Shown here piece after piece: positions 1-34,437 of a stretch of DNA of 34,437 nucleotides. Source of the stretch: Caldilineaceae bacterium SB0662_bin_25 (GTDB lineage: Bacteria > Chloroflexota > Anaerolineae > Caldilineales > Caldilineaceae); the NCBI GenBank assembly GCA_009840225.1, contig VXOE01000393.1, positions 1 to 34,437 on the forward strand, written 5' to 3'. The notes beneath the pieces were generated by a model. That model worked only from the letters and a program-made list of their open reading frames with translations. It was not told the DNA's origin and made no database searches. Position numbers and translations under genes: made by a program. Positions within the stretch are counted from its first letter, which is position 1; each line of letters starts with the position of its first letter.

Positions 1-266
1 CCTACTGCCTACCCGACCGGGTGTCGATATTCGTAACAGGTGCCTAATCGAAGGTGTCTAGCCCGACCACGTCCCGCCCGTCCCATCAGGTCCCTTTACG
101 TGCCGGCCTTGTTCCTGCCCTCACACCCTCCCCAACTGACGGACACCACCGTACAGCCGGGCCTGCCGCCTGCACTGCGTCTCTCTCAGAGCCAGTAAAC
201 ACTTTCAGCCACCGCTGGCACTGTTTCCCCGCCAGACTGTTCCCACCCCAAATCTGGGATGCACCC
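1..266. mobile_element. Truncated right part of a dispersed MITE-like element, left end outside the window
   Basis: Ungapped alignment of 11-266 with 25751-26006 at constant offset 25740, about 35 mismatches in 256 positions by hand count (about 86% identity); ends in TGGGATGCACCC, the inverse of GGGTGCATCCCA. Confidence 0.75.
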
Positions 267-12098: not shown

Positions 12099-12157
12099 TG
12101 GGCGGCCGGGCCTTCGGCCCTCCCTTGTGCGGGGGGTTCCCCCCCGCAACGCCCCCC
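12099..12157 (+). repeat. Stand-alone copy of the double-hairpin module found inside the MITE-like element
   Basis: TGGGCGGCCGGGCCTTCGGCCCTCCCTTGTGCGGGGGGTTCCCCCCCGCAACGCCCCCC, near-identical to 25672-25732. Confidence 0.75.
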
Positions 12158-23363: not shown

Positions 23364-24584
23364 CTACTGGCTGCTACACGGAAAGCGGATGCGCAGAGTC
23401 CCGCCGGCGAAGACCGCGCCGCTGGCATCCCGTTGCGCCAGGATTGCCGGCAGCAGATATTCACGCTTGAAATTCCCGATCGAAATGAAAAGCTCGTCGC
23501 CCCGTTTCGTCAGCCGGATCTTGTCCAGCTCTATGTGGGGTAACGGCAGCTTCAGAATGAAGTCATCGCCCTGCTCCTCGATCTCCTGTGCCTGACCTAC
23601 GAACATCACCTCGCCCGGGTCCCGCTGCCCGTACAGCTCATCCGCCAACGACCGCAGCGGGCCAAAGCCGACCACCTCCTCGCTTCGCCAGCTGCTGTAC
23701 AGAATCGGCAGCGGGTAGAAATCCCGCTCGATCTCAACCAGGTAGCGCGCCTGGTGCTCCTGAAGCTGGCGCAGATACGGATCGCTGCTCGGAGCAAAAA
23801 CGCCTGCTCCCCATGCCCCCTGACCCGTCTCCCCATCCCCCTGAGCCCGCACACCGGGCAGAATGCGGTTGACCACAACCCCATCCACCGGACAGCCGAA
23901 CAGCGACAGATAGGTCACCGCCCGTGCCCCCTCCTTGATCACCATCCTCTCAGGATTGATTACGACCCGGTAACTGGTGGTCTGAGGATCGCTCAGGACC
24001 TCTTGCAACGCCTTTACATCATCCACCAGTTTGGGCAGACTGGCCAGCGCGTCCTGCTCCGGCATCAGCCGCCGCAACAGCCCGCCGGTCAGCCGCATCG
24101 CCGTCTCCCCCCAACCGAAGAAACGCTCCACATACCACTGGAAACTCTCCGGCATCGCCAACAACCGCATCGACTCGCCCGTCGGCGCAGCATCCACAAT
24201 AACCCGGTCGAATTCACGCGTCTCCGCATAGCGGTAAATGTGCAACAGGCTGAAGATCTCCTCCATGCCCGGTATGATCGCCATCTCTTCGGCAACCGTC
24301 TTACTCATCCCCTGCTTACGCAGAATCTTGCCCATGTAGCCCTGCATCGCGCCCCAGTTCTTCCGTACTTCGTCCAGGACATTGATCTCCTGCGCAAACA
24401 GATTGGCAGTCACCTCCGTTGGTTCGCTCTTCAGCGGCCTGTCAAGGCTGTCCGCCAGGCTGTGCGCGATGTCTGTGCTCACCACAAGCGTACGGTAGCC
24501 CATCTGCGCGCAGCGCAGCGCCGTCGCCGCAGCCGTCGTCGTCTTGCCTACGCCCCCCTTGCCCAAGTAGAGAAGGATGCGCAC
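23364..24584 (-). CDS. ArsA/GET3-family ATPase with C-terminal HSP20-like (ArsA_HSP20) domain
   Basis: [23 protein letters not shown] (GTG start); [41 protein letters not shown]-term [41 protein letters not shown]. Confidence 0.88.
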
Positions 24585-24701
24585 AGTCTCCACCTCTCGT
24601 TTCGTCACAGGAGCAGGACACCCGACTCCCCTGTCGCAGGAGTCGGATCCCTCCACCCGATCACCTGTTCTGGCCGCTGCCCCTGAAACATCAGGCAACG
24701 G

Positions 24702-25424
24702 TCAAAAGGCTTCGCTCGTTTCGTCTCTATCCGAACGGCGCCGGGCGCCTCCGCGCCGCAATAACGCCGCTACCGCCAGCACAACCAGCAGCACCCCGGC
24801 CAGCACATAAAGCGCAGCCGTACGGCTCAGACCGAACCAGCCCCGTATCCGCCACCAGTACAGCGGCAACTGCGCCCAATAGCTCCATCGCAGATGCCAG
24901 CGATGACCGATCGAGATCACATATTTGCCCATCCGGTTGTGCGGCGTCCAGACCACAAGATAACAACGCCCGCCGACAAGCGTACGCGAGTCGATCAGAG
25001 GTCCGGGGAAGTAATGCACACGGGTCAGAACATCCTTGACCGGCTGCAAAAGCTCACTCGGCGGCGGCGCCACGATCGCGCTGTAGCCATGCGGCAGCTC
25101 CAACGGCAGCTTCTCCGTGTCCGCACTGTATGGCAGGCTACGCGCTACGACCGCAAACGACGGCATAACCGAACCGCCGCGGGGAAGGACAGGAACGAAC
25201 ATCTGCGCCCGCAGACGGTCGCCCGCCTTGCAATCCACGCGGTATACATGCGTCTCACCAAGCCGTGTGAACGCCCCAAAAATGAGCCGCTTCCGGCTGA
25301 AATCGGCGAACGATTCGCCGTCTACCAGCTGACTGCCCGGCCGGCTGCCGAACACCGGTACGCTACCCGCAAGATCAACGCCGGGGACCGGCCGGGGGCC
25401 GCTCTCAGTGCCTACCTCAGTCAC
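24702..25424 (-). CDS. Hypothetical protein with C-terminal TM helix
   Basis: Beta-rich ectodomain (THVYRVDCKAGDRLRAQMFVPVLP), hydrophobic AALYVLAGVLLVVLAVAALL followed by basic tail. Confidence 0.65.
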   Translation of the reverse strand: MTEVGTESGPRPVPGVDLAGSVPVFGSRPGSQLVDGESFADFSRKRLIFGAFTRLGETHVYRVDCKAGDRLRAQMFVPVLPRGGSVMPSFAVVARSLPYSADTEKLPLELPHGYSAIVAPPPSELLQPVKDVLTRVHYFPGPLIDSRTLVGGRCYLVVWTPHNRMGKYVISIGHRWHLRWSYWAQLPLYWWRIRGWFGLSRTAALYVLAGVLLVVLAVAALLRRGGARRRSDRDETSEAF

Positions 25425-25534
25425 AACGCCTCCTGCACAAAAATACGTATAGACAGGCCTGCTTGTTGCAGTCCAAGATCACGCGCAAGAGTCTATCACC
25501 CGCGCGCACGCTCCGTCAACCGAACGCCCGCTTC

Positions 25535-26006
25535 GGGTGCATCCCAAAATGGCGGCGAACCCCCGTATTCCTCCGGCAATTGCCCGCCATTGGGTCAGCC
25601 CGCGATCAACTCTGACTCAGGCGAAGCGCCGTCTCTGATCACTGACCACTAACCACTGACCAATGTAGTTTTGGGCGGTCGGGCCTAGTCGGCCCTCCCT
25701 TGTGCGGGGGCTCCGCCCCCGCAACGCCCCCCCTAAACCATGCCGTGCCTCATCGACCGGGTGCCGACATTCGTAACAGGTGCCTAATCGAACGTGTCCA
25801 GCCCCACCACGTCCCGCCAGTCCCATCCGATCCCCACTAGTGCCGGCCTTGTGCCTGCCCTCGCACCCGCCCCAACTGACGGACGCCGCCGTACGGCCAG
25901 GCCAGGCGCCTGCACTGCGTCTCGCCCAAAGACGGTAAACAATTTCAGCCACCGCTGGCATGGTTCCCGCGCCAGACTGTTCCCACCCCAAATCTGGGAT
26001 GCACCC
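25535..26006. mobile_element. Non-autonomous MITE-like element with terminal inverted repeats (complete copy)
   Basis: Left end GGGTGCATCCCAAAATGGCGGCGAAC; right end reverse complement GGGTGCATCCCAGATTTGGGGTGGGAAC; partial copies at 1-266 and 34278-34437; no transposase ORF. Confidence 0.7.
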
Positions 26007-26113
26007 ATCGCTTTGCCAGTGAGTATACCCGTGCCTCAACTACCCCCATTCAGGACCTGCCAATCGACATCAGAATCTTGGAACTCCCGCGAAATCTATG
26101 GTACGCTTCGCCT

Positions 26114-27427
26114 ATGAACGCCCGCGTCCTCGCCCAGCTCACCCTCGTTCACGTAGGGGTCTCCATCACCGTCGTTCCGGTCACCAGCACGCTCAATCGC
26201 GTCATGATCGCAGACATGCAGATGCCGGTAACGCTGGTGGCCGTCCTGGTTGCATTGCCCTACCTGCTATCCCCCCTGCAGGTATTCCTGGGAAACTGGT
26301 CGGATCGCCATCCGGCCGCCGACTACCACCGCACCCCTTGGATTCTCCTCGGCGGGCTGCTCGCCGCGACCGGCAGTTACTTCACAGTCCACGTAGCCTA
26401 TCTGCTCGATCATAACTTTCTGATGGGTCTTGGGGCCGCAGCCGTCGTCTTCTGCCTGTGGGGAGCCGGTATCAACGCCGCCTCCGTGAGTTATCTCTCT
26501 CTCGTTACCGAGCTGGCCGACGAAAACGGGCGGAGTCGAGCGGTCAGCATCATGTGGACAGCAATGATCGCATCCACGATTGCGACCAGTCTGGGCCTCT
26601 CTCGCATGTTGGCAACGCCCACCCCCCTTTCCAAAGAAACGCTTACCACTGCCTTCGGTGTGATCTGGCTGGTCTCCGTCATCTTTGTCCTTATCGGCAG
26701 CTACCGCATCGAACCCCGCGCATCAGCCAGAACCGACCGGCCCGCCAACAGCGCCGATGATCCCATGCTGGTCTTGCGCCTGCTGGCTTTGAATCCCCAG
26801 GCCCGCCGCTTTTTCGTTTACCTCATGATCGTGCTGATCAGCATCCACGCCCAGGACGTATTGCTCGAACCGTTCGGTGCAGAAGCTTTGAACATGTCTG
26901 TCGCAGTCACCTCGCGCCTGACTTCAATCTGGGGAACCGGCATCTTTATCACCCTCCTGGCCGGAATCCTGTTTGTGAAACGCTTTGGAAAAAAAACTGG
27001 CGCCAATACCGGCGCCTTCATCACCGCCGTCGCCTTCGCCTCCATTATTGCCACCGGGTTGTTCGGCAATTCTAACCTGTTTCTCGGCGCCGTATTCTTG
27101 TTGGGTCTGGGCGGCGGCCTCATGACCGTCAGCAACCTCAGTTTTATGCTGGACATGACCTTGCCGCAGGCCGCCGGCCTCTACATCGGCGCCTGGAGCG
27201 TGGCAAATTTCGCCGGTCAGGCCGTCGGCAACATCATCAGCGGTATCCTGTGGGATCTCTTCTTCTGGTTGACGGGTAACCCGCTGCTGGGGTATGCTGC
27301 CGTCTTTTCTCTCGAAATCGCCGGCCTGCTCCTGGCCGTCTGGCTCTTCCGCTCCATCAGTGTCGAAAAGTTCCGCCGCCAGGCCGAAGTGCGGCTCCAT
27401 ACCGTTCTCTCCCTGGCCTCCGACTGA
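26114..27427 (+). CDS. MFS transporter, PucC/BCD-like family
   Basis: LTLVHVGVSITVVPVTSTLNRVMIADMQMPVTLVAVLVALPYLLSPLQVFLGNWSDRHPAADYHRTPWILLGG and multiple TM helices. Confidence 0.82.
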   Translation: MNARVLAQLTLVHVGVSITVVPVTSTLNRVMIADMQMPVTLVAVLVALPYLLSPLQVFLGNWSDRHPAADYHRTPWILLGGLLAATGSYFTVHVAYLLDHNFLMGLGAAAVVFCLWGAGINAASVSYLSLVTELADENGRSRAVSIMWTAMIASTIATSLGLSRMLATPTPLSKETLTTAFGVIWLVSVIFVLIGSYRIEPRASARTDRPANSADDPMLVLRLLALNPQARRFFVYLMIVLISIHAQDVLLEPFGAEALNMSVAVTSRLTSIWGTGIFITLLAGILFVKRFGKKTGANTGAFITAVAFASIIATGLFGNSNLFLGAVFLLGLGGGLMTVSNLSFMLDMTLPQAAGLYIGAWSVANFAGQAVGNIISGILWDLFFWLTGNPLLGYAAVFSLEIAGLLLAVWLFRSISVEKFRRQAEVRLHTVLSLASD

Positions 27428-34277: not shown

Positions 34278-34437
34278 GGGTGCATCCCAGTATTGGGGTG
34301 AACTTTCCCATTCCTCAGGCAGCAACGGACCCATGCCCAGTCCGCTTTCGACCCTGAAGTAGGTGAAGCGCCTCCTCTGACCACTGACCACTAACCACTG
34401 ACCACTGCAGTTCTGGGCGGTCGGGCCTATTCGGCCC
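34278..34437. mobile_element. Left part of another copy of the MITE-like element, truncated by window end
   Basis: GGGTGCATCCCAGTATTGGGGTGAAC, then TGACCACTGACCACTAACCACTGACCACTG and TGGGCGGTCGGGCCTATTCGGCCC, same order as 25535-25695. Confidence 0.7.

Follow-up and report, generated by a model that had tools for sequence, protein, structure and literature searches.

A promoter-linked MITE with ISKra4-type ends in Caldilineaceae and an internal module in common with IS66-type MITEs

What is the repeated element at positions 25535-26006 of a Caldilineaceae contig, which lacks a transposase gene, and by what means could it have spread? The window, that is the whole stretch of 34,437 nucleotides analysed here from Caldilineaceae bacterium SB0662_bin_25 (GCA_009840225.1, VXOE01000393.1), is the entire contig C33 and carries an incomplete copy of the element at either end. 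The 472-bp sequence at 25535-26006 (plus strand) is a real MITE of the ISKra4 family, as shown by its terminal inverted repeats (TIRs), empty sites in seven congeners, and a filled ortholog in genome G004. The 12-mer GGGTGCATCCCA was found in the window at 25535 (+), 25995-26006 (-), 34278 (+), and 255-266 (-), and the TIR arms of the complete element reach 21 nt with 81% complementarity. Allowing up to two mismatches, the window alone holds five occurrences compared to 4.36 expected (not significant); exact occurrences number 41+49 = 90 in the 5.6-Mb genome versus 0+0 for a reversed-pattern control, so the recurrence of GGGTGCATCCCA is not due to chance. A tblastn search for a transposase remnant inside 25535-26006 gave no significant match. 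The initial annotation, which described a transposase-free 472-bp element with GGGTGCATCCCA inverted repeats, was thus borne out by the genome counts, the empty sites, the filled ortholog, and the lack of such a remnant. It had also taken three copies in 34 kb as a sign of a numerous family, and the 90 exact 12-mers uphold the family size but not the density: the second copy (1-266, plus strand) has lost its left part and the third (34278-34437, plus strand) its right part at the contig ends, and since the window is a contig with cut copies at both ends, the count reflects the positions of assembly breaks.

Comparison with congeners revealed a sharp insertion boundary, as the element was absent and its flanks were joined at the orthologous loci of G011, G001, G005, G006, G007, G008, and G002. 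The filled ortholog in G004 reads CCTGCTTC, element, CCCGCTTC, and the window reads CCCGCTTC (25527-25534), element, ATCGCTTT (26007-26014). The right side of the G004 element is identical to the left copy in the window, so ATCGCTTT is a decayed target duplication; the CGCTT match between the flanks, offered earlier as a weak trace of an 8-bp duplication, is therefore genuine. The insertion is older than the split between the window species and G004. Perfect 8-bp duplications were identified around 102-bp members (loci L067, L071, and L073), a 163-bp member (L132), and the IS in L057; a 455-bp copy (L059) has a perfect 9-bp duplication TCCAATGGC, one-mismatch duplications flank the long copies in L058, L060, L063, and L108, and similar duplications occur on family copies in G004, G014, and G005. 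An ancient immobile repeat, of the REP/BIME or another palindromic type with incidental inverted ends, would fit the palindromic structured interior, the restriction to the genus, and the decayed duplication in the window, but is highly improbable given the perfect 8-bp duplications on several members, the sharp empty sites, the cognate IS described below, and the absence of a Y1/RAYT transposase (PF01797) from four genomes of the genus. A REP/RAYT origin was rejected on the latter ground, the control being positive in 5/14.

A transposase gene bounded by the same TIRs, the autonomous partner for which the initial annotation had no name, was identified as an ISKra4-family IS on contig C304 (7786-9243). 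This single 1458-bp IS has both 12-bp GGGTGCATCCCA ends exact and a perfect 8-bp duplication, TTCTACCC. The IS carries two overlapping ORFs, of 122 and 344 aa, that align to consecutive portions of the NF033572 ISKra4 transposase model (2e-69 and 6.9e-11), the better reaching 234.8 bits (above the cut-off of 205), and the transposase scored 81.6 bits against the ISLre2 model, below its 200-bit cut-off. The second ORF is shifted by +1 with respect to the first, the same two-ORF split was found in the G012 copy, and a similar T/C run is present at the junction in G010; a programmed +1 frameshift likely joins the two ORFs. The C304 transposase was the only such match in the window genome, several near-identical copies with 76% identity to it were found in G012, and its relatives in named records come from uncultured Caldilineaceae. 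Multiple identical matches limited to the last 36-37 residues of the ISKra4 transposase were also observed on G005 contigs C45, C77, C98, C99, and C101 and on several G010 contigs, which suggests further deletion derivatives that kept the 3' end of the gene.

The left TIR of the window element (25535-25555, plus strand; CCCAAAAT) is the counterpart of the 3' or IRR end of the IS, and the right TIR (25986-26006, minus strand; CCCAGATTT) that of the IRL end, which precedes the transposase gene in the IS; at this end 17/17 nt are identical. Otherwise the interior gave no match to the IS, and its origin as an IS remnant was rejected because the similarity is limited to the ends. The ISKra4-family transposase (prokaryotic Mutator, p-MULT 4) would bind the GGGTGCATCCCA ends of the MITE and insert it with an 8-bp, at times 9-bp, target duplication, so that the C304 IS or its relatives would have mobilized the family in trans; with only one IS copy in this genome, the source could also be a relative that is now lost. 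Alternatively, another transposase recognizing the same ends moved the element and the C304 IS played no part in its spread, as the single copy of this IS versus approximately 90 exact ends might indicate. This is very unlikely, as the IS and the MITE agree in both asymmetric end types, in the length of their duplications, and in the 15-bp promoter spacing set out below, and the copies examined contained no other gene flanked by these ends.

Insertion of the family is non-random, with good support for one element end lying 15-16 bp ahead of the -35 hexamer of a sigma70/A-type promoter. An independent scan of 25400-26150 found one promoter-like site only, the sigma70-type TTGACG-18-TAGACT (25490-25519, minus strand) of the divergent gene, with a -35 that starts 15 bp from the left end of the element. 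This site is the presumed target of the window copy, and its -35 region (CGTCAA on the plus strand) was kept in all seven empty-site congeners. The element lies between a PucC/MFS transporter gene (26114-27427, plus strand) and the divergent gene, to which no function was assigned (24702-25424); a neighboring gene (23364-24698, minus strand) codes for an ArsA-type ATPase. Across 132 distinct flanks of the GGGTGCATCCCA TIR, partly orthologous between species and so incompletely independent, a match of at least 9/12 to TTGACA-16/18-TATAAT was found 14-17 bp from the element end in 40 cases, compared to 0-2 in the other four-base windows and a mean of 0.5 in shuffled flanks. Among the 26 complete copies (up to three mismatches between duplications), 20 had a promoter match on one side at a threshold of at least 8/12. 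Either end type may face the promoter, two autonomous IS copies follow the same spacing, and IS66-type MITE ends from the same genomes showed it in 0/82. Approximately 70% of the ends had no strong promoter match; half are expected to lack one as the far ends of elements, and the remainder may reflect decay or weak promoters. In the proposed mechanism, the transposase would insert the element so that 15-16 bp separate one of its ends from the -35 hexamer downstream, leaving the promoter intact and altering only the DNA upstream of it. Such insertions would be tolerable because the promoter is intact, which could explain the high copy number, and they may affect transcription. By landing approximately 15 bp ahead of promoters, a high-copy MITE can rewire many genes, or insulate them, with none broken.

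The unusual part of the element is an internal module in common with IS66-type MITEs. The interior includes 7-bp iterations ACCACTG/ACCACTA (25635-25662, plus strand) that vary in number from copy to copy and a structured core (25673-25729, plus strand) composed of an outer stem and two hairpins; an extra core copy at 12100-12154 (plus strand) has neither TIR type recognizable within 420 bp. The core measures 55-57 nt and is predicted to fold into a three-way junction (-37.2 kcal/mol, z = -3.0 for the window sequence), with weak z-scores in two other variants (-1.0 and -0.7). Pairing was maintained in 93.9% of cells across 26 distinct copies, and compensatory changes in four pairs (eight cells) were not equalled in any of 500 shuffles; this signal, arising from few events, supports conservation of the predicted hairpins. 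The core was present in 16/17 genomes of the genus, with at least 150 matches in several, and in 0/288 other sampled genomes of the class, and plasmid and phage collections contained no match to the element. An Rfam search of 25400-26150 gave chance-level matches only, with nothing near a gathering score, and terminator function was rejected since no terminator-like site was found in the same interval.

The core also resides in G015 within 283-349-bp elements with GTAACTACTnAGCC ends and mostly perfect 8-bp duplications. These ends also bound a 1569-bp IS that carries an IS66-family transposase (NF033517, 3.5e-88). G015 has six identical copies of this IS and 213 exact GTAACTACTnAGCC matches, compared to 30 such matches in the window genome. 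Loci of this MITE family and its partner include L249 (G015:C1:1177300-1179900) at 496-2064, L251, and L252-L256. Around the core, the element of the window aligns with an IS66-type MITE at 82% identity over 123 bp (E = 7e-27). Where core copies had enough flank, 28/36 adjoined one TIR type, 0/36 both, and 8/36 neither; an independent existence of the core apart from MITEs was not supported, as the eight TIR-less copies were decayed-looking or mid-array. In G011 and G012, the segments that flank the core are mixed between the MITE families. A further observation was made at L196 13368-14304 (G015:C1:213368-214304), where about five core-bearing units with a spacing of approximately 210 bp lie in tandem within one IS66-type element.

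Recombination or template switching most likely carried the module from one MITE family to the other. A functionless core that hitch-hiked by homologous recombination or template switching is the probable reading, being in agreement with the flanking segments mixed between families, the variable 7-bp iterations that favor slippage, and the tandem module arrays in G015, although across species no other part of the interior is as well conserved as the core, in which compensatory changes also occur (few events, as above). A function of the core is possible, and a functional RNA or DNA structure, e.g., an insulator between element and promoter that raises the survival of carrier MITEs, would agree with its presence at a roughly fixed position in two unrelated MITE families, the z-score of the window fold, and the compensatory changes. 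This is nonetheless rather unlikely in view of the weak folding of the two other variants, the negative terminator and Rfam searches, and the absence of promoter preference in the IS66-type carriers. It is likewise doubtful, if conceivable, that the core is a selfish or functional cassette with hundreds of copies across the genus, having spread by lodging in MITEs whose transposases belong to two or more unrelated families, and that one of these families sets it beside host promoters. A module common to two unrelated MITE families raises the question of whether MITE interiors matter or are exchanged by chance. For the element as a whole, we are highly confident in a MITE that is moved in trans by an ISKra4-family transposase, generates 8-bp (sometimes 9-bp) duplications, sets one end 15-16 bp upstream of a -35 hexamer, and has an interior foreign to the IS with a genus-specific module that is also found in IS66-type MITEs, most likely acquired by the exchange described above.

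The MITE family is a main cause of the fragmented assembly. In a systematic contig sample, the element matched at 31/67 left ends and 20/50 right ends, giving an estimated copy number of approximately 340 matching ends out of 792, some of which cover the core only and may be IS66-type. Such repeats help account for assemblies of hundreds of contigs in the genus. One copy (L058; G000:C125:13852-14399) contains a long poly-G and N stretch inside the core, where the assembly left a gap in the GC-rich hairpin. A 102-bp subfamily shares the ISKra4 ends and is flanked by perfect 8-bp duplications but lacks the core (L067 1179-1280, L071 503-604, L073 1100-1201, and L267 797-898), and a long copy in G005 has the L267 member nested at its end. 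The closed 5.1-Mb genome G003 is the sole congener without a core match, has almost no element matches, and may represent the pre-expansion state or a loss.

Literature searches found neither strong promoter-linked MITE targeting nor a module common to unrelated families, and the open-licence literature searched held no earlier description of this MITE family. REP/RAYT palindromes are also high-copy palindromic units, from which the element differs by its TIRs and target duplications. Bacterial MITEs (PMC2229807, PMC10969869) are similarly short, non-autonomous, and of high copy number, with TIRs, a target duplication, and sometimes structured motifs, but unlike them the present family combines strong promoter-linked targeting with a module in common with MITEs of an unrelated transposase family. 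The IS66 family is the source of that second MITE family with the same module and differs in its unrelated transposase, its GTAACTACTnAGCC ends, and its lack of promoter preference. TnGBS and ISLre2 elements also insert 15-17 bp upstream of sigmaA promoters, but these, as conjugative elements or ISs, encode a transposase of their own, and the partner IS falls below the ISLre2 cut-off. The ISMich2 group is described with a -1 frameshift, whereas the two ORFs of the partner IS are offset by +1, both in G000 and in congeners. The closest agreement is with the ISKra4 family (p-MULT 4; PMC3942029): p-MULT elements generate 8- or 9-bp duplications and several ISKra4-group members insert 13-17 bp upstream of sigmaA promoters (PMC3942029), and the present family resembles them in both respects as well as in its NF033572-matching partner and in ends that start with G (terminal C on the other strand). 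It differs in that the MITE has no transposase and that the promoter rule holds for either end. The promoter specificity of ISKra4-group transposases is already published, and the MITE is an addition to the known ISKra4-type elements, providing many natural insertions with empty-site controls for the study of Mutator-like promoter targeting.
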